A stretch of DNA of 12,636 nt from NCBI GenBank assembly GCA_002707085.1, contig PALY01000136.1, positions 2,382-15,017 on the forward strand, written 5' to 3'. The DNA is from Deltaproteobacteria bacterium (GTDB lineage Bacteria; Myxococcota_A; UBA796). This document shows, in pieces, positions 1 to 12,636 of the stretch. The stretch's first letter is position 1, and each line of letters starts with the position of its first letter. Under the pieces are notes generated by a model that saw only the letters and a list, made by a program, of their open reading frames with translations, did no database searches and had not been told where the DNA came from. Made by a program: the position numbers and the translations under genes.

Positions 1-857
1 CGGTCATAAATAACGATTGTATCGTTGAGTGAATACCCGATGATTGTAAGCAGGGCGCCAATCATCGGCAGGTTGAACTCATGTCCCGTAATCGTGAAAA
101 TACCGACCACAACCGTCACATCATGAAACAACGCCAACACCGCACCGGGTGCAAACGCCAAGTCGAAACGGAAACCGACGTACACCAAAATAAGGGCCAA
201 TGTCGCAAGAATGGCAACAAAACCCTGCCGACGAAGTTCCCCACCGACTTTGGGTCCAACCGCATCCACTTTCAATACCTTGAAATCGCGACCACTCAAC
301 GTGTCACGCAGTTTCTCACCAATCTGAGATGCCAGGCCAGGTAGGTTCACATAAACCATGTTTTCATCAAGTGCTGGTGCTGCCACCGCACCGGACACAC
401 CCGATACCGATCGCTGCACGTCTTCCACCGTTACCTGTTCACCGTTGTAGCGAACCGTCAGACGAGCCCCGACTTCTGCGGAATAATCGGTCTCGTTAAT
501 CCAATCGCTTCCAAACTGACTCGTGAGGGCCGCCTCAACTTCGGCACGCATTTCTGCAGTACCAAACTCAGGGTCTTGGATTCGAATGACATACTCGCCT
601 TCATCCTCCGCACCGATCTGCTGCACGGTATCGCTGGAAAGTTCCAACTGTGCGAGCGCAGTTCGAACTTCACCAATATCAACGGCATCATTAAACTTAA
701 GGTGAACCTCGGTTCCACCTGTGAAGTCGATACCCCAGTTGGGTCCTTTTACGAAGAACAGCACAAGACTGCAGGCAACCATTATGACCGACAAGACACC
801 AGCTTTCTTACGGCCTGCGACGAAGTCAATATTAGTTCCAGGTTTGACTAAATTCAT
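1..857 (-). CDS. secF: Protein translocase subunit SecF (3' part lies outside the window)
   Basis: SecF is the membrane partner of SecD. Together they use the proton motive force to help finish protein export through SecYEG. I translated 285 complete codons from the ATG at 855-857; the C-terminus is cut off by the window edge. Seen: a first membrane segment at about residues 20-37, then the SecF signature GIDFTGGTE (42-50), a long periplasmic region, then VGPKVGGELRR (200-210), a second membrane segment (about 212-231), ALFHDVTVVVG (242-252) and GYSLNDTIVIYD (274-285). All are hallmark SecF motifs. The start is preceded by GAGG at good spacing; that GAGG overlaps the secD stop codon, with a 7-nt gap, so the two genes are probably translationally coupled. 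Oddity: the periplasmic domain between GIDFTGG and VGPKVG is about 150 residues, clearly longer than E. coli SecF (about 85 by memory), apparently because of an extra alpha/beta unit at about 120-185. Confidence 0.96.
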   Translation of the reverse strand, partial: MNLVKPGTNIDFVAGRKKAGVLSVIMVACSLVLFFVKGPNWGIDFTGGTEVHLKFNDAVDIGEVRTALAQLELSSDTVQQIGAEDEGEYVIRIQDPEFGTAEMRAEVEAALTSQFGSDWINETDYSAEVGARLTVRYNGEQVTVEDVQRSVSGVSGAVAAPALDENMVYVNLPGLASQIGEKLRDTLSGRDFKVLKVDAVGPKVGGELRRQGFVAILATLALILVYVGFRFDLAFAPGAVLALFHDVTVVVGIFTITGHEFNLPMIGALLTIIGYSLNDTIVIYD

Positions 858-864
858 GGCAACC

Positions 865-2832
865 TCAAATGGACAAACGGGTTGTGGCTTTCCGTGTCAG
901 GAAATCCATCATGGTCCGCGAAACAAAGATTCCGGTAAACAGTGTGGTCACAATCCCAATCATCAGCGTGACGCTGAATCCCTTGATCGGCCCTGTACCG
1001 TATGTGTAGAGGACTACGCCCGCGATGAACGTAGTAATATTGGCATCAAGTACGGCAGTAAGCGCATTTGAGAAACCCGAATCTACGGCAGAACGCGTGG
1101 TTTTACCCAATCGTAATTCCTCACGGATTCGCTCATAAACGATGATGTTGCAGTCCACCGCCATACCCACGGTCAACGCAATACCCGCGATACCCGGAAG
1201 CGTCAGCGTGGCTCCCGCACCGGCCAACAGCGCCATAACCAGCATGATGTTGAAACTGAGCGCCAAGCAACTGACGACACCGGCTGCCCGGTAGTAGATC
1301 ATCATGAACAACAGGACAAGAACTCCGCCCACCGCAGTCGCACGCTTTCCAGCAGCAATCGCATCCGCTCCGAGACTGGAACCGACTGTACGAACGTCCC
1401 CAATCTCAACAGGGGCCGGCAAAGCGCCGGTACGAAGAACCAACGCCAAAACCGAGGCCTCAGTCAGTCCTTGATTATAGTCCTGTACACCCAGTTCAAT
1501 GCTCGCCCGTCCACCACAAATCGCTTCACGGATAACCGGTGCTGATCGCACCTTCTTATCCAAAACAATCGCGAAACGGCGTCCAACATTTTCTTGGGTA
1601 AGGTCACAGAAAATCTTGCCACCTCGTGGCTTGAACTCAAGTGCAACATAGGGTTCGTTGTATTGGTTCATCGCGGTCGAGGCGTCGTTTACGTCATCAC
1701 CGGTCAACACCACTCGGTCCCGAACAACGATGGCTCGTGTTCGAACATCACCCATTTCACCGCGTTCTTCGTATTCAAACATCACACGAGATTTGGAATC
1801 GATCTTGCCCTGACGAACCAGCCAATCACTCACATACAGGTCATCGTTAAACTGTTCTGGTGTCAGCGTATCTTCCGCATCCAGCAGCCCCTTGTCGAGT
1901 GATGCTTCATCTGCATCCTCATCCACCATCATGAAGTCCAGCACAGCCGTGGTACCAATCGCTGCCACCGCCTGCTCAATGTTTTCGATACCCGGCAACT
2001 GCACGTTGATGCGGTTTCCACCCTTAAGAACGATGGACGGCTCCTTGACGCCTGTTTCATCGATACGAGAGCGAAGCGTCTCAAGAGCCTGCTCTACTGC
2101 ACGATCACCAATCGACTTTGCCTGAATCTCTAAAAGACCGAAAGCCAGGTATTCTGCACCATCGACCTCGCGAGTATTCAGAAATTCATATTGATCGAAA
2201 CGCTTGGTCATAAACCGACGAACTGCGTCATCCCCCACTCCATCAGCGGCACGCACCAACAAGACCGGTTCGCCGCGAGCGCGTCGGACATCAGCGAGAC
2301 TAAGGCTGTCATCTGCAGCCAGTGTCTTCAATGGTGCGACATCCCGATGAACCGATGAAATGACGGCTTCATCGACCTGAACATCCAAGGTCATGTCGAT
2401 GCCACCCTGAAGGTCGAGTCCCAGACTAATGCGGCTTTCCGCCATCAAACTTTCCCACCACTCCGTGCGCGGGTTGAACGTCAAAAAGTCCGAATCTTCA
2501 TCGTCGAAAAATTCATATTCAGTGAAGTTCTTTTCCATCAACTCCACAACTTCATCTTCATTCGAAGCGCGGCCAACATCCAGAAGAAGCGCGTCATTCG
2601 CACCCCGTCGAACTTTTACCGAGCCAATGCCTGCAGCACTGAGTTGTGATTTGACGGCCTCGACGACTTCATCTTTGTTTTGTGCCGATTCAGATGCAGC
2701 TTGGGCATCCGAAGCTTGGGCCTGCAGCCGACTTTGGGTCGACTCTCCAGCAAATGTCGGGACCAACATCCATACGCCCCACAACACCACGCCTAAAATA
2801 ACAAATACGCGGCTCCACCAGGTACCAGCCAT
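865..2832 (-). CDS. secD: Protein translocase subunit SecD
   Basis: SecD is the large periplasmic-domain subunit of the SecDF accessory motor. It pulls preproteins out of the SecYEG channel at the expense of the proton gradient. The protein is 655 aa, slightly longer than E. coli SecD (615). Seen: TM1 at about residues 8-26; an Ala/Gln-rich stretch (38-52); the SecD signature LGLDLQGGIDM (137-147); a P1 base region with LRSRIDETGVKEPSI (253-267) and VQLPGI (277-282); ALVLRTGALPAP (463-474); then five TM segments (about 498-640) including GIAGIALTVGMAVDCN (547-562) with the conserved Asp560, and YERIREELRLG (566-576). I chose the ATG at 2830-2832, preceded by AGGGAGGGG with 6-nt spacing, rather than an in-frame codon 21 nt upstream inside yajC. 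It begins 1 nt after the yajC stop and is followed by secF after 7 nt. Confidence 0.97.
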   Translation of the reverse strand: MAGTWWSRVFVILGVVLWGVWMLVPTFAGESTQSRLQAQASDAQAASESAQNKDEVVEAVKSQLSAAGIGSVKVRRGANDALLLDVGRASNEDEVVELMEKNFTEYEFFDDEDSDFLTFNPRTEWWESLMAESRISLGLDLQGGIDMTLDVQVDEAVISSVHRDVAPLKTLAADDSLSLADVRRARGEPVLLVRAADGVGDDAVRRFMTKRFDQYEFLNTREVDGAEYLAFGLLEIQAKSIGDRAVEQALETLRSRIDETGVKEPSIVLKGGNRINVQLPGIENIEQAVAAIGTTAVLDFMMVDEDADEASLDKGLLDAEDTLTPEQFNDDLYVSDWLVRQGKIDSKSRVMFEYEERGEMGDVRTRAIVVRDRVVLTGDDVNDASTAMNQYNEPYVALEFKPRGGKIFCDLTQENVGRRFAIVLDKKVRSAPVIREAICGGRASIELGVQDYNQGLTEASVLALVLRTGALPAPVEIGDVRTVGSSLGADAIAAGKRATAVGGVLVLLFMMIYYRAAGVVSCLALSFNIMLVMALLAGAGATLTLPGIAGIALTVGMAVDCNIIVYERIREELRLGKTTRSAVDSGFSNALTAVLDANITTFIAGVVLYTYGTGPIKGFSVTLMIGIVTTLFTGIFVSRTMMDFLTRKATTRLSI

Positions 2833-2833
2833 C

Positions 2834-3169
2834 TTATTCCCCTCCCTGCACACGACCCACGAAGACTTTGTCTACGGTGATCTTGACCTTGTCCGAAACT
2901 TCCAAATCGATGGTTGAGTCTCCCACTGAAGCAATCCGCCCATGTACACCTGACTTGGTGACCACGCGCTGCCCTTTCACAAGTGAAGCAACCATTTCAT
3001 CGTGGGCCTTTCGCTCCTTGTTCTGTGGACGAATCAACACAAAATAGAAGATACCCACCATAATTATGATGAAGGGCAAACCACCCAATGGGTTCGCATT
3101 CGCCGCAGCGTCTTGCCAATGCACCGTCGTCTGCGGGACTTCTACGGTGATTGCAGTATTTTCGGACAT
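2834..3169 (-). CDS. yajC: Sec translocon accessory complex subunit YajC
   Basis: YajC is a small single-pass inner-membrane protein that associates with SecD-SecF. The protein is 111 aa from the preferred start. Seen: a polar N-terminal leader, a Gly/Pro-flanked membrane segment at about residues 31-47, directly followed by the family signature YFVLIRPQNKERK (42-54), and a soluble C-terminal beta-rich part containing GQRVVTKSGVHGRIASV (66-82), which matches the usual YajC pattern of a conserved G-x-x-V-x-T-x-x-G segment. An in-frame ATG 15 nt upstream (3184) has no Shine-Dalgarno sequence, whereas the ATG at 3167-3169 has GGAG 9 nt upstream. I therefore prefer the shorter form. The stop lies 1 nt before the secD start, so the two are coupled. 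A 27-nt gap separates it from tgt. Confidence 0.95.
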   Translation of the reverse strand: MSENTAITVEVPQTTVHWQDAAANANPLGGLPFIIIMVGIFYFVLIRPQNKERKAHDEMVASLVKGQRVVTKSGVHGRIASVGDSTIDLEVSDKVKITVDKVFVGRVQGGE

Positions 3170-3196
3170 GAACCTAAACTCCATTTTGGTGCGACT

Positions 3197-5382
<2,186 letters not shown>

Positions 5383-5383
5383 T

Positions 5384-5566
5384 CTAGTCCTGCTCACTCG
5401 TGCTTTCTTGTTCCGCGGCCTCTTCAGCAGAAAGCCTGCGTAGCGTCACATCTCGTGGGGCATCAATACACAAACGAACCCAGTTTCCCTTGATGCGCTT
5501 TACGTGAATTCGCACATCCGGCCCAATTTCTAGGATCTCCCCTTCTTTATGGGTGAGTACCAACAT
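5384..5566 (-). CDS. csrA: Carbon storage regulator CsrA (RsmA-type translational regulator)
   Basis: CsrA is a dimeric RNA-binding protein that binds GGA motifs, often in hairpins over ribosome-binding sites, and so represses or stabilises mRNAs. The 60-aa sequence aligns without gaps to E. coli CsrA over the core: MLVLTH at the start, GE (9-10), IG (14-15), VKRIKGNWVRL (22-32), APRDV (36-40) and RR (43-44). Leu4 and Arg44, known RNA-contact positions, are kept, but Arg6 is replaced by His6 (followed by Lys7). The tail after residue 46 is short and acidic. The start is preceded by GGAGG at 7-nt spacing. It is the first gene of the queA-tgt-yajC-secD-secF operon and lies 1 nt before queA, so its expression should be tied to theirs. 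CsrA is confidently assigned; its targets are not known from this window. Confidence 0.95.
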   Translation of the reverse strand: MLVLTHKEGEILEIGPDVRIHVKRIKGNWVRLCIDAPRDVTLRRLSAEEAAEQESTSEQD

Positions 5567-5639: not shown

Positions 5640-6959
5640 ATGTCAGACAATCGCATCCGTACCATTCGTCGCCGCACCAAGCCGAAAGGCGAGAAAACCG
5701 ACGAACAGGCGACCGAAGCCGCTGTTGAAACAGCGGCTGAACCCAGTGCTGAACCCGCAGTAGAACAGCCTGTACCTAAGAAGAAAAAGGCACGTTTAGG
5801 GCCAACAATGGACGTTCAAGCCCTAGAGGCAGAAGTCGACGCTTTGGGACCTGACGCAATGGGTAAACTGTTGGGTTCCGCTGTGCCCAACGATCCAGAA
5901 ACAGGACAACAAGTCTCTGGAACGGTGGTAACCATCACAGAAACGACAATCTTTGTTGACATCGGCGCAAAATCGGAAGCCGCGATCGACCGGGCCTCTT
6001 TTGCCAACTCAAATGACCTGGAAATGGGACAAAAGATTTCCGCCTACGTCGTCCGTGTAGACGATAGAGGAATCCAACTCGCGCCGAAACTGTCTGGAGC
6101 AGGGGCGCGTGAAATGTTGGCTGAAGCACACACCAATAAAATTCCCGTAGAAGGAAAAGTGGCCAGCCGAAACCCTGGTGGTTTTACCATCGAAATCGCA
6201 GGCATCAGCGCCTTTTGTCCAGTTTCCCAGATTGCGCGATACCCCGGAGACGATCTGGACAGCTATATCGGCCAAACCATGTTGTTCCGCATCCACGAGT
6301 TTAAGGAAAGAGACGTAGTCGTCAGCCATCGGGCCATCCAAGAAGAAGAGGCCGCCGGCGAAGCGGCAAAAGCATGGACTGAACTCAACGTTGGTGACGA
6401 ACGGGAAGGGGTTGTCACCGGCACAGAAGATTTCGGTGTCTTCGTCGACATTGGAGGCATCCAAGGCCTGCTTCATAAATCTGAATTCAATGTTGGAGAA
6501 GGCAGTAAAGCACCCGAAAAAGATGAGAAAATTACCGTACGGGTCAAGTCGATCGATTCAGCAAAACAGCGGGTCAGTCTGGCGCTAGCAGGCGAGCAAT
6601 CAGGACCATGGGCGCAGGTAGGTACGACTTTTGTAGAGGGCGGAACATACACGGGAACCGTCACTCGAGTCGCCGACTTTGGCGCGTTTGTGAAGCTGGG
6701 TCCAGGGCTAGAGGGCCTTGTCCATGTTTCACAACTCGCTGATCGCAGAGTGGACCACCCTCGAACTGTCGTCAAACAAGGCCAAGAAGTTCAAGTGAAA
6801 ATCATCGAAATCGATGAAGATCGGGCGCGAATTGCGCTGAGCATGAAGAAAGATGCTGCGACAGGTTCTTCCGATTGGAAGAAGCACACGGGTTCAAAAC
6901 AAAAGAAACAGTCTTTGGGCACATTCGCCGACTTATTGGGCGGCCTGAAAATCAACTGA
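5640..6959 (+). CDS. S1 RNA-binding domain protein with four S1 repeats (ribosomal protein S1-like)
   Basis: A 439-aa protein made of tandem OB-fold S1 domains, expected to bind single-stranded RNA in the cytoplasm. Residues 1-58 are low complexity: a basic start ([15 protein letters not shown]), an Ala/Glu/Pro-rich acidic stretch (21-45) and a KKKKAR patch (47-52). Four S1 repeats follow at about 89-150, 168-234, 251-317 and 334-403. Repeats 3 and 4 are the most canonical ([19 protein letters not shown] and [20 protein letters not shown]); repeats 1 and 2 are divergent. The tail ends [14 protein letters not shown], a motif common in short S1-type proteins. It is shorter than the six-repeat E. 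coli ribosomal S1, so it may be a compact S1 or a separate S1-family regulator. GAGGTGA precedes the ATG with good spacing. It is monocistronic here and its 3' end overlaps the convergent gene by 8 nt. Confidence 0.88.
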
Positions 6960-8458: not shown

Positions 8459-10465
8459 ATGAGCAACCGCGCGGTCGGCATCGACCTCGGAACAACATAT
8501 TCTGCCATTGCCCAGGTCAACAAGCATGGCGTCCCGGAGATCCTCGCCAATGCCGAGGGGGACCGCATTACGCCGTCTGTCATATTGTTTGACGAAGACG
8601 ATATTGTGGTCGGAAACTACGCCAAGCAGGCCGCGATTGCATACCCAGACCAAGTCGTTGACTTCATCAAGCGACAAATCGGTGATCCAAATTACGGGTT
8701 TGCATACGGCGGCGAAGTATACACCCCCGAAAAGCTTTCCAGCTTTATCTTGGCCAAACTAAAGCACGACGCTGAAATGCGCCTCGGCCACCCCATTGAA
8801 GAAGCCGTCATTACGGTCCCCGCTTATTTTGGAGACCAACAAAGACGGGCCACACTGAAAGCGGGAGAACTGGCTGGACTGAAAGTGTTGAAACTCATCA
8901 ACGAACCCACCGCCGCCGCATTCGCCTATGGGCTTGCGAACGCTGGCAAGGACATGAAAGTCTTGGTGTTCGACTTGGGGGGCGGCACCTTTGACGTCAC
9001 CTATGCAGAGATCGTGGGCAAGGACATCAAAGTCACTGCAACGACAGGCGACCATCAACTTGGTGGTAAAGACTGGGACGATTCGCTGATTAAATGGGCT
9101 GCGGAGCGATTTGTAGCAACGCACGGTATCGATCCACTCGATGACATCGCGGCGTACCATGACCTGCGACAAAAGTGTGTCAGTGCGAAGTTGACACTCA
9201 CTCGTCGCCCAAAGGTGAATCTATTTTTCGACTATGAAGGGAAAATACTTCGGGAAGAAGTGACTCGCGAGATGTTTGAGGAACTCACATCTCCTTTGGT
9301 GGCACGATGCGAAGCCCTCACTCTCGACGTCCTTCAAGATGCCAACGCAGAGGCCAGCGAAGTGGACGTGGTCCTATTGGCCGGTGGCTCCACTCGAATG
9401 CCGAGGGTTCGAAAGCTGATTGAAAATATGTTCAATCAGGCGGCGGCAACCGACATCAATCCAGACGAATGCGTGGCGCTGGGTGCAGCATTGACTGCCG
9501 CCCTTGAGAGCGCTCGACTCTCTGGAGAAGCCCCTCCTGTCGACATCAGAACTCACGACGTCACAAGTCACTCACTGGGCATGGTGGTCTTTAAAGACGG
9601 CGAACTGAAGAACAGTCAAATCATCCGACGAAACACCCGCATTCCCTGTGAACGCACCCGGGACAACTACGTCACGACACACGAAGGACAATCAACCATG
9701 GACCTGTGGCTGGTTCAGGGTGAATCGACGAACCCTACAGAATGCAATGCGCTGGGTCATTTTGAGTTCTACGGGATCCCACCAAGACCTGCCGGCGACA
9801 CGCGATTGGCCGTCACCTTCCGATACAACGCCAACGGCATCGTAGAAGTGGAAGCCATTGATCTAAACAACGGCCAAACCCTGGGTCACCGTCTCAGTGA
9901 TTCTGGAATCAGCCTGGATGATGTCACTCGTGATCAAGTCCCGATGCACATCGCCCTTTTAATGGACTGCTCTGGCTCCATGTACGGACAGAGCATCACT
10001 GCAGCACGGAAGTCGGCCGCATCCTTTGTGTCCAAAACGATGGGTGGCCAAACCAACCGAAAGCTCTCACTGGTCGCCTTCCCAGGTGGTCTAAAAACTC
10101 CAGTAACGGACAACAAAGACCAAATTCTAACCGCCGTCAATGGTCTCTCCCCGATTGGGTCCACCCCAATGGCCCTGGGCCTTGCACAAGCGCGAGCATC
10201 CTTAAAAGCATCTACTGGTGTGCAAAAAATCTATGTCGTACTGACCGATGGTCACCCCGACGATCCTGCGGGGACCTTGGAAGAGTGCAACCGAATCCGA
10301 CGGACGGGCGGTAGGATCATTACCATCGGTGTAGGGCAACAGGTTCAGCAAGATTACCTTCGAAGCCTATGTTCCAGTGCCAATGATTACCATCATTGCG
10401 ACGAGCCACTAGACCTTGAGGGCACGTTCATCAACCTTGCGACTGAATTGAGTGACGGAGCATAG
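8459..10465 (+). CDS. Hsp70-family chaperone fused to a C-terminal von Willebrand factor A domain
   Basis: A 668-aa ATP-dependent chaperone-like protein, cytoplasmic (no signal or membrane segment). The ATPase domain (about 1-355) has all core motifs: GIDLGTTYS (7-15) with Asp9, FIKRQIG (69-75) with Lys71, LINEPTAAAFAYG (146-158) with Glu149, FDLGGGTFDV (171-180) with Asp172, Thr177 and Asp179, GGKDWDD (202-208), and LLAGGSTRMP (306-315). Compared with E. coli DnaK about 23 residues are missing between Lys71 and Glu149. A beta-type substrate-binding domain follows (about 365-480: DVTSHSLGMVV, NTRIPCER, ITLxVxQGE-like LWLVQGES). The alpha-helical lid is absent. In its place is a VWA domain (about 494-668) with a full MIDAS: DCSGS (503-507), Thr569 and Asp597. 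The usual VLLLD linker is replaced by a polar DIRTHD (362-367). First gene of the operon; grpE follows after 4 nt. The start has a weak SD but directly precedes the ATPase motif. Confidence 0.93.
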   Translation: MSNRAVGIDLGTTYSAIAQVNKHGVPEILANAEGDRITPSVILFDEDDIVVGNYAKQAAIAYPDQVVDFIKRQIGDPNYGFAYGGEVYTPEKLSSFILAKLKHDAEMRLGHPIEEAVITVPAYFGDQQRRATLKAGELAGLKVLKLINEPTAAAFAYGLANAGKDMKVLVFDLGGGTFDVTYAEIVGKDIKVTATTGDHQLGGKDWDDSLIKWAAERFVATHGIDPLDDIAAYHDLRQKCVSAKLTLTRRPKVNLFFDYEGKILREEVTREMFEELTSPLVARCEALTLDVLQDANAEASEVDVVLLAGGSTRMPRVRKLIENMFNQAAATDINPDECVALGAALTAALESARLSGEAPPVDIRTHDVTSHSLGMVVFKDGELKNSQIIRRNTRIPCERTRDNYVTTHEGQSTMDLWLVQGESTNPTECNALGHFEFYGIPPRPAGDTRLAVTFRYNANGIVEVEAIDLNNGQTLGHRLSDSGISLDDVTRDQVPMHIALLMDCSGSMYGQSITAARKSAASFVSKTMGGQTNRKLSLVAFPGGLKTPVTDNKDQILTAVNGLSPIGSTPMALGLAQARASLKASTGVQKIYVVLTDGHPDDPAGTLEECNRIRRTGGRIITIGVGQQVQQDYLRSLCSSANDYHHCDEPLDLEGTFINLATELSDGA

Positions 10466-10469
10466 CCGG

Positions 10470-11021
10470 ATGTCTAAGCAAGAAACACCCAAATCGAAGA
10501 CTGCCGCAGAGAAGAAGAGTGTGGAATCCTTTGAGTCCATCGCTTCAGAGGTAGCTGAACTTAAAGATACACTGGCCCGGCAAGCGGACAACGATGGCGT
10601 ACAGCAGAAAGCCTTCGATCAACTCTACGAAGAACTGCGTCAATACAAAGAAGACTTTGTTTTTCAAAACGAAAAATCTCTTCTGTTGGACCTGCTTTTA
10701 TTTTATGACAGCGTAAATTGGTTCCAGCAAAGCCTTATCAAAAAAGAGATGAGTCCAGACGTGATTGCGGACTCTTTCCAATACCTGATCGATGAGTTGC
10801 TCGAATTGTTGTATCGACGAGATGTTCTACCAATGGAAGCATCAGACAGGTTTGACAGGAAGGTACACAAAGTCATCAAGACCGTACCTGCTCCAACTCC
10901 CGAGGAAGATTACGATATTCATCAAGTCCTAAAACGCGGATTCACACGTGGAAGTCGCGTACTTCGAGCAGAAGAAGTCGTTGTAAAACGTACTTCTCAA
11001 TCCAACCCAGCCAGTGAGTAG
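10470..11021 (+). CDS. grpE: Divergent GrpE-type nucleotide exchange factor
   Basis: GrpE proteins are dimers that release ADP from Hsp70 and so reset the chaperone cycle. This 183-aa protein has a charged, probably disordered N-terminus (1-20), a long helix likely to form the dimer coiled coil (about 20-75), a helical region (75-120), and a C-terminal part resembling the GrpE beta wing: DRFDRKVHKVIKTVPAPTPE (126-145) in place of the usual EPFDPxxHEAM segment, then VLKRGFTRGSRVLRAEEVVVKR (153-174), close to the canonical GYxLxxRVLRPAxVxV ending with Pro replaced by Ala/Glu. I chose the ATG at 10470, which has GGAG at 9-nt spacing, over a GTG 18 nt upstream. It lies 4 nt after the Hsp70-VWA stop and 12 nt before the second Hsp70, which argues for a dedicated exchange factor for these two proteins rather than the housekeeping GrpE. 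Confidence 0.85.
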   Translation: MSKQETPKSKTAAEKKSVESFESIASEVAELKDTLARQADNDGVQQKAFDQLYEELRQYKEDFVFQNEKSLLLDLLLFYDSVNWFQQSLIKKEMSPDVIADSFQYLIDELLELLYRRDVLPMEASDRFDRKVHKVIKTVPAPTPEEDYDIHQVLKRGFTRGSRVLRAEEVVVKRTSQSNPASE

Positions 11022-11033
11022 TCGTAGTCCATC

Positions 11034-12636
11034 ATGAACGACGTCATCCTCGGGATAGATCTCGGCACGACGTTTTCGGCCATGGCCGTAGTGGACCAAT
11101 TTGGAAAGGCCACCATTGTGGCCAATGGTGAAGGGCATCCAACCACACCGTCGGTGGTTCACTTCTACGAAGCTGGGGCATGCATTGTCGGAGAGGAAGC
11201 CATCAAGAGCGTGGTGGCAGATCCAGGCAATTCGATTCGCTTTGTAAAGCGCCTCATGGGCGAAGACCTGAGCCTAAACTTCTACGGTGAAGAGTTCACA
11301 CCACAGGCCATTTCAGCCTTGATTCTCAAGAAGCTAAAAGAAGATGCTGAAGAGGTCCTTGGACACGAAATATCTACCGCTGTGATTACAGTTCCCGCTT
11401 ACTTCAATTCTGCGCAAAGAGCGGCAACCGCAGAAGCTGGACGTCTGGCAGGACTCAATGTCCTATCCATGATCAACGAACCGACTGCTGCAGCCATCGC
11501 CCACGGGCTTGAGCGTTTTGGCGACGACAGACGAATGCTTGTCTTTGACCTTGGGGGCGGCACATTCGATGTCACCATCATGGACATTGCGGGAATCACT
11601 TTCACAACCGTAGCGAGTGACGGCAATGCCGAGCTGGGCGGAAAAGACTGGGACGACCGGCTCGTCGAATATGTCGCCCAACAATTCATGGAAAAACACG
11701 GTGTTGACCCACGAGATGATCCCCAACCGTACCAAGAATTGTATGAACGATGCCTTGCTGCAAAGATTGCATTGTCCACCAAGCCAAAGGCCGTCATTCC
11801 GATCAATTATCAGGGAAACCGAGAAGCCATTACCGTTACGCAAACCACTTTTGAAGCGATTACGCGCGATTTGGTCAAACAATGCGAAGACACGGCGAAC
11901 CTGCTGCTTGAATCGGCCAACCTTAATTGGAGTGAAATCGACGAAGTCCTTCTGGTGGGCGGGTCCACAAAGATGCCCATGATTCGACGCATGGTCGAAT
12001 CGCTCGCTGGAAAGGCTGACTTCCCTGTCGTAAACCCAGATGAAAGTGTAGCAGTCGGCGCAACGTTGGCTGGGGTCCTGCGACATCAACCCAAACATCC
12101 CGCCCTCCGAAAGGTCAGAAAAGCGCTGAAGCGTCGCGCGACAGAACAAACGGACCGTCAACAAGTGGCCACAGATGCCACAAATGAGATCGAAGAAGAT
12201 GTGGTGGATGAAGCCACAGAACCAGGCATTCCCGAAGTCACCATCAATGACGTGTGCACCCATCCGCTGGGAGTCGTGGCTCTTGACGACAACCTGAATG
12301 AAATGATCGTGATGCTAATCGACAAAGCCACCCCAGTTCCATGTGAACGAAAAGGACGTTTTGCATATGCCTACGACGGAATGACCGCTGTTCAAGTGGA
12401 AGTCACTGAAGGCACTGGCCGTAACCGAGAGGAAGTATTTGTCGTCGGCCAAATCGTGCTGGAAGATCTTCCACCACGCCCTCGGGGCACGCCCATCGAC
12501 GTCATCTATCGATACAATGTAAATCAGATTCTGGAAGTTGACGTCGTCGACGTGGAAACCGAAAGCGTTCGAAGCGCGCGGCTTCACCTTTCGTGGAACC
12601 GGCTCCAGCTGGGCCTTGCCCATCGCAGAGCCCACG
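11034..12636 (+). CDS. Second Hsp70-family protein with long charged interdomain linker (3' end outside the window)
   Basis: I translated 534 codons from the ATG at 11034 to the window edge with no stop. The ATPase domain (about 1-350) is complete and collinear with the upstream Hsp70: GIDLGTTFS (7-15), FVKRLMG (70-76) with Lys72, MINEPTAAAIAHG (146-158) with Glu149, FDLGGGTFDV (171-180), GGKDWDD (202-208), LLVGGSTKMP (306-315). The same roughly 23-residue shortening relative to DnaK is present. Residues about 351-402 form an insert not found in DnaK: a basic half (355-369, many Lys/Arg) followed by an acidic half (385-397). A beta substrate-binding domain begins at INDVCTHPLGVV (404-415), includes PVPCERKGR (434-442), and runs past residue 510. 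What follows (lid, VWA or other) cannot be seen. No clear SD precedes the ATG, so translation may depend on coupling with grpE 12 nt upstream. The DVC-PLG start of the binding domain resembles HscC-type Hsp70s. Confidence 0.92.
   Translation, partial: MNDVILGIDLGTTFSAMAVVDQFGKATIVANGEGHPTTPSVVHFYEAGACIVGEEAIKSVVADPGNSIRFVKRLMGEDLSLNFYGEEFTPQAISALILKKLKEDAEEVLGHEISTAVITVPAYFNSAQRAATAEAGRLAGLNVLSMINEPTAAAIAHGLERFGDDRRMLVFDLGGGTFDVTIMDIAGITFTTVASDGNAELGGKDWDDRLVEYVAQQFMEKHGVDPRDDPQPYQELYERCLAAKIALSTKPKAVIPINYQGNREAITVTQTTFEAITRDLVKQCEDTANLLLESANLNWSEIDEVLLVGGSTKMPMIRRMVESLAGKADFPVVNPDESVAVGATLAGVLRHQPKHPALRKVRKALKRRATEQTDRQQVATDATNEIEEDVVDEATEPGIPEVTINDVCTHPLGVVALDDNLNEMIVMLIDKATPVPCERKGRFAYAYDGMTAVQVEVTEGTGRNREEVFVVGQIVLEDLPPRPRGTPIDVIYRYNVNQILEVDVVDVETESVRSARLHLSWNRLQLGLAHRRAH

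Follow-up and report, generated by a model that had tools for sequence, protein, structure and literature searches.

Genes at the locus

We analyzed a stretch of 12,636 nucleotides (the window; all coordinates refer to it) from a deltaproteobacterium of the Myxococcota_A (GTDB lineage UBA796; assembly GCA_002707085.1, contig PALY01000136.1, positions 2,382 to 15,017). Positions 8459 to 10465 on the plus strand encode a protein of 668 amino acids (aa) that, from the translated open reading frame (ORF) and domain searches, is an Hsp70-VWA fusion. The ORF of a GrpE-like nucleotide exchange factor (10452 to 11021, plus strand; Pfam GrpE, 55.4 bits) overlaps the hsp70-vwa stop codon and is followed by a second Hsp70, here called Hsp70B (11034 to 12635, plus strand; Pfam HSP70, 393.5 bits), which is cut by the contig end and is lidless in its relatives. 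The end of Hsp70B right at the contig end (12550 to 12635) is unlike its homologs, possibly reflecting an assembly-end error.

The upstream part of the window (3 to 5397, minus strand) carries genes that we take to be secF, secD, yajC, tgt, and queA; the clusters in this region are common to many loci of the order. Positions 5640 to 6959 encode an S1-like protein of 439 aa, apparently a short S1, which matched ribosomal protein S1 models below their cutoffs. Between 6952 and 7845 lies the gene for a protein whose C-terminal part weakly matched uracil-DNA glycosylase models, also below the cutoffs.

Domains of the Hsp70-VWA protein

The Hsp70-VWA protein consists of an Hsp70 ATPase domain, a beta substrate-binding domain (SBDβ), and a VWA domain, in that order. 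The nucleotide-binding domain (NBD) occupies residues 1 to 361 (8459 to 9541); within it, the codon for Lys145 (8891 to 8893) corresponds to Arg167 of DnaK, the contact of the J-domain HPD aspartate. Residues 362 to 367 (9542 to 9559) are the interdomain linker, DIRTHD replacing DVLLLD. The SBDβ (residues 368 to 484; 9560 to 9910) is retained, the Pfam stretch covering residues 82 to 474 and the alignment reaching residue 491, with an AlphaFold2 (AF2) prediction that is in part poor. At the expected start of lid helix A there is a short helix (residues 485 to 493; 9911 to 9937); the canonical DnaK helical lid is absent, and the VWA domain, which replaces it, runs from residue 494 to the C terminus (9938 to 10462). 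The MIDAS is full (DxSxS-T-D) and is made up of DCSGS (residues 503 to 507; 9965 to 9979), Thr569 (10163 to 10165), and Asp597 (10247 to 10249). All of these features are on the plus strand.

The earlier note on this DNA had claimed that the lid of an Hsp70 is swapped here for a VWA domain with an intact MIDAS. Pfam, the alignments of homologs, and AF2 confirm it: residues 494 to 668 are predicted to have the Rossmann-like VWA fold, and the MIDAS is conserved among homologs. The ATPase site is conserved as well, the equivalents of DnaK D8, T11, K70, E171, and T199 being kept in all 115 close homologs and that of D201 in 114 of the 115.

Distribution of the Hsp70-VWA architecture

The earlier note had allowed that such domain unions might exist in databases, and they do. 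Two protein searches returned 252 and 243 proteins, and among the 120 matches listed in each, those that were read carry both Pfam domains. The first of these searches drew its words from the VWA domain, and the majority of its 120 listed proteins were 660 to 670 aa long and had both domains. Thus, the union is not rare, and it is already in databases. In the open-access literature that we searched, no description of such a fusion turned up.

When the phylum of the window was surveyed (E, 1e-20; the top 6 candidates scored per genome), Hsp70-VWA was found in 60 of 377 genomes, with one match each, and all 60 were among the 63 members of the window's order. There were no matches at this threshold in the remaining 314 genomes, which comprised 8 other members of the class and 306 other members of the phylum. 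The three order members that gave no match are 80 to 82% complete. An artefact or a chance fusion is ruled out by the presence of the gene in 60 of 63 order members.

A query from Metabacillus at an E value of 1e-15 matched 57 of 319 genomes, all 57 within the window's order. Outside the order, the architecture was rare. The class of Metabacillus had it in 1 of 299 genomes (Metabacillus itself) and the phylum of Haloarcula in 1 of 294. Among 246 genomes of the planctomycete phylum, there was one true fusion, that of the planctomycete itself; the other match (genome G1461) was a lone VWA protein. The search of the Flavobacteriales phylum (0 of 296 genomes) had no positive control, so its result shows nothing. 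The source names of the Hsp70-VWA protein matches include Bacteroidota, Methanosarcina, Methanoregula, Bacillaceae, and others, and the architecture is patchy in other phyla and in the archaea. In the first of the two protein searches, the source names were Myxococcota for some matches and Alphaproteobacteria, Oligoflexia, Deltaproteobacteria, or Pseudomonadota for others. A scan of genome contigs with alignment A1 (38 sequences), in which one of two patterns was DLGGGTFD, yielded mostly ordinary DnaK; among the 80 loci listed, the match extended far into the VWA domain at L011 and L012 alone.

A conserved operon

The order of genes around hsp70-vwa is conserved: hsp70-vwa comes first and is followed by grpE, the second, lidless hsp70, a gene for a membrane J-like protein, and usually a gene for a TPR-zincin. 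Besides the window, 59 order members had a match; we examined 40 of these together with the window, 41 loci in all. Neighbors were counted by tblastn because ORF-based calling in these GC-rich loci gave many shadow ORFs; the queries came from L124, L128, L132, L159, and the window, and those loci match themselves. Counting loci with room downstream, GrpE was detected in 38 of 39 and Hsp70B in all 31; the J-like protein was present in 28 of 30, and the TPR-zincin followed in 23 of 26. The gene maf lies less than 400 bp upstream of hsp70-vwa in 38 of 39 loci. The J-like gene is not seen at the window locus because the contig ends inside the second Hsp70. The neighboring grpE and second hsp70, which the earlier note overlooked, belong to the Hsp70-VWA system. 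In the genome of the window, which is 72% complete, there are three genes for GrpE, and Hsp70 matches occur at seven places, with an eighth that is weak and partial (contigs C104, C25, and C136 of genome G000).

Of the J-like genes detected in the tblastn searches, 15 were read as ORFs. A hydrophobic segment was present in all 15 proteins (maximum KD, 1.89 to 3.03), with a second one in that of L124, and the first repeat bore a motif of the QGQQ-ANPK or QGMQ-ANPK type in all 15. Three of the J-like proteins were tested for domains: two had a DnaJ Pfam match above the cutoff, one had a PEGA match above it, and two had a below-cutoff match to an AgmX/PglI tail. The sequences show that the operon encodes a pair of lidless Hsp70s, of which one carries a MIDAS VWA domain, together with a GrpE and a protein that has J-like domains and one hydrophobic segment.

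Relationship to GAP1-N2/DO-GTPase systems

At two loci outside the order, hsp70-vwa lies in a GAP1-N2/DO-GTPase operon of the kind described by Kaur et al. (2020). Both L012 (Metabacillus litoralis) and L168 (an archaeon) have, in this order, grpE, hsp70B, hsp70-vwa, and genes for a zinc-ribbon J-like protein, DO-GTPase2, and GAP1-N2. These genes were identified by Pfam matches over the cutoff, except for the J-like genes, which had no DnaJ Pfam match and were called by eye and by a weak profile match; the profiles of the J-like proteins of the order and of these two loci matched with an HHalign probability of 33% (E, 5e-4). Kaur et al. (2020; PMC7159879) reported that about 14% of GAP1-N2 neighborhoods encode HSP70 and GrpE, in some cases along with another HSP70, as well as an FNIII protein fused to DnaJ; the parts of that paper that we consulted make no mention of a VWA domain fused to HSP70.

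In a tree of NBDs (68 rows, subject to a long-branch warning), all Hsp70-VWA and Hsp70B proteins from both settings grouped on a single branch (100/100) that excluded the 15 other Hsp70s. Within this branch the Hsp70-VWA proteins of the order and those from elsewhere made two groups, and the Hsp70B proteins of the order were placed beside its own Hsp70-VWA proteins (98/81). Neither a single clade of all Hsp70-VWA proteins (P = 0.32) nor a single Hsp70B clade (P = 0.12) was rejected by the AU test, a result that allows for different numbers of fusions or losses. On the evidence of the aligned NBDs, the Hsp70s of the order share ancestry with those of the GAP1-N2/DO-GTPase operons.

The two kinds of systems have in common an Hsp70, a GrpE, a second Hsp70, and one branch of Hsp70s. 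A J-type partner, DnaJ fused according to the paper, may be a further common element, the J-like proteins of the order being weakly similar to those of L012 and L168. They differ in that the operon of the order has another gene order, a J-like partner with a transmembrane segment, and PEGA in one of three proteins, instead of a zinc ribbon, and in that the order has the full MIDAS.

Kaur et al. class such GTPase systems as conflict systems that act near the membrane (PMC7159879), and the company that Hsp70-VWA, GrpE, and the second Hsp70 keep in Metabacillus and the archaeon would fit a conflict or immune device in which the module has kept the threshold or sensing role of the GAP1-N2/DO-GTPase systems, now with other effectors. 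We judge this unlikely for the order. There, the gene is single copy, nearly universal, and beside maf, unlike the patchy defense genes and the patchy GAP1-N2 systems. GAP1-N2 was found in none of 39 order genomes, including that of the window, although the same model does match the Metabacillus genome; DO-GTPase2 (PF19993) exceeded the cutoff in 1 of the 39, on another contig, and was not found in the window's genome at its present completeness. The five operon proteins had no PADLOC match at an E value of 1e-5. In the planctomycete genome of L011 (G377), a GAP1-N2 gene is also present, on a contig other than that of Hsp70-VWA.

Changed contacts with co-chaperones

Current understanding of allostery in Hsp70s centers on three elements: the lid, the hydrophobic linker, and the contact between HPD and Arg167. 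Compared with E. coli DnaK (b0014), Hsp70-VWA has the same NBD, SBDβ, and ATPase residues, but the lid has become a VWA domain, and both the linker and the Arg167 position are altered. The equivalents of DnaK L390, L391, and L392 are R, T, and H in 111, 113, and 114 of the 115 close homologs, respectively, whereas these positions are hydrophobic in all 14 other Hsp70s compared. Mutations at L390 to L392 of the DnaK linker abolish function and weaken DnaJ binding (PMC6843406). In Hsp70B (19 of 19) and in Hsp70-VWA proteins from outside the order (106 of 110), residue 391 is Val or Ile, and residues 390 and 392 are mostly polar or small.

At the Arg167 position, the Hsp70-VWA proteins of the order have K (21), A (13), S (4), Q (1), or R (1) among 40 alignable loci, L129 being the single member that keeps Arg. 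Ser occupies it in all 20 Hsp70B proteins read, and Arg in all 14 of the other Hsp70s, a set that includes 5 encoded by the genome of the window. Outside the order, A (58) and R (37) account for most of the 110 Hsp70-VWA proteins. On the partner side, HPD is absent from the J2 loop in 13 of the 15 J-like ORFs read. The two exceptions, L128 and L131, have RHPD in J2 and are paired with Lys at the Arg167 position; Lys also occurs with J-like proteins that have no HPD, and the pairing gave no clean pattern. Lys, the commonest residue at this position, may still be able to bind an Asp. At L012 and L168, HPD is missing from the J-like start of the J-like partners as well. Since these partners do not have HPD, yet 37 of the 110 outside proteins keep Arg167, the losses of Arg and HPD are not tightly paired. 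In the laboratory, DnaK R167A is rescued by DnaJ D35N (quoted in PMC13012618), so there is precedent for a pair that stays functional when both partners have lost the contact.

The earlier note described Hsp70-VWA as an ATP-driven chaperone; that it is an otherwise standard one is doubtful, because the linker and the J-protein contact through which DnaK links ATP to its substrate have changed. The same changes bear on whether the protein is a duplicate DnaK serving general proteostasis, with the VWA domain merely a scaffold or oligomerization module. The retained SBDβ and the grpE within the operon would suit such a chaperone. We nevertheless consider it quite unlikely: the hydrophobic linker and Arg167, which DnaK needs (PMC6843406 and PMC13012618), are lost; the MIDAS is conserved; and further DnaK-like Hsp70s and two more GrpE genes are present in the window's genome.

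Conservation of the MIDAS

Mean column identity in alignment A1 was 78%, and D503, S505, S507, T569, and D597 were invariant. The complete set of these five residues was found in 114 of 115 full-length close homologs and in 39 of the 41 loci (the window and 40 order members). Outside the order, the position of the MIDAS Thr is occupied by G (81), C (18), A (5), S (4), or T (2) in 110 proteins (the 120 listed, minus 11 that were shorter than 640 aa, plus L011), although this is a gappy loop and the alignment there is uncertain.

The outside proteins, with Thr aligned in only 2 of 110, indicate that the fold stands without a full MIDAS, and L139 has a full MIDAS although no J-like gene was detected there by tblastn; both would agree with the VWA domain being a plain structural cap with no metal-bridged ligand. 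That reading is very unlikely, given the near invariance of the MIDAS in close homologs and the case of L138 (genome G026). This deviating order member, in which the Thr has become Gly and an Hsp70B match lies 28 bp downstream, is also the sole locus with no GrpE detected by tblastn and one of the two with no J-like gene detected.

The earlier note's idea that the VWA domain is a recruitment module, binding a partner through a metal ion, is reasonable by analogy with MoxR AAA+/VWA chaperones such as NorQ/NorD (PMC9976466). Those systems likewise join an ATPase motor to a MIDAS VWA domain that may hold the client, but in Hsp70-VWA the motor is an Hsp70 and is in the same chain as the VWA domain. 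In NorD MIDAS mutants, the ATPase NorQ was still bound and the target enzyme was left inactive, and the recruitment idea fits this result.

Interpretation

With moderate confidence, we favor the reading that Hsp70-VWA is the main ATPase of a dedicated, membrane-tethered, J-insulated Hsp70 machine that is core equipment of one order and in which the VWA domain clamps a partner. ATP cycling would persist. In the lid's place, the VWA domain would act as a clamp, with a metal ion and an acidic side chain mediating its grip on a partner or client, and the J-like protein would anchor the machine at the inner membrane. Because Arg167 is gone from most copies of both Hsp70s and most of the J-like proteins read lack HPD, the Hsp70/J-like pair may work through a changed interface, insulated from the cell's ordinary DnaJ. 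The machine is probably a separate, dedicated one, since the parts of this private operon have changed the standard J-protein contacts. A likely client would be an envelope complex near the outward domains of the J-like protein; this is the weakest step, drawn from weak domain hits.

More tentatively, the operon is possibly a natural orthogonal Hsp70-J pair, built on a chaperone module common with a GTPase conflict system and now core equipment of the order, in which both partners abandoned the contact between Arg167 and HPD and the clamping job of the lid passed to a MIDAS VWA domain. If so, the laboratory pair DnaK R167A and DnaJ D35N may have a natural counterpart here. It is also possible that a module of a conflict system became a core gene here; the change may have run in either direction. 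A conserved Hsp70 family that alters the lid, the linker, and the HPD-Arg167 contact but keeps the ATPase site could show what the Hsp70 motor does without them, and how cells separate parallel chaperone systems.

Other Hsp70s with added or associated domains

Three further systems were compared. The PilZ-DnaK chaperones CsdK1 and CsdK2 of Myxococcus xanthus (PMC10313047) are also DnaK paralogs that have gained a domain and serve a specific client, but the added domain is PilZ, and the term VWA is absent from the paper's main text. In the CoCoNuT restriction systems (PMC11090510), Hsp70 NBD and SBD units occur within larger systems that also have VWA proteins; there, the Hsp70 units are fused to McrB or McrC homologs, and the VWA domains are on separate proteins. 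SglK/GrpS of M. xanthus was considered as the closest known system, on the basis of published descriptions, and was rejected; neither VWA nor von Willebrand occurs in the main texts of PMC8265645 and PMC11019930. Complementation of E. coli dnaK is known for two Hsp70s of M. xanthus, and both belong to PRK00290 (PMC8265645).
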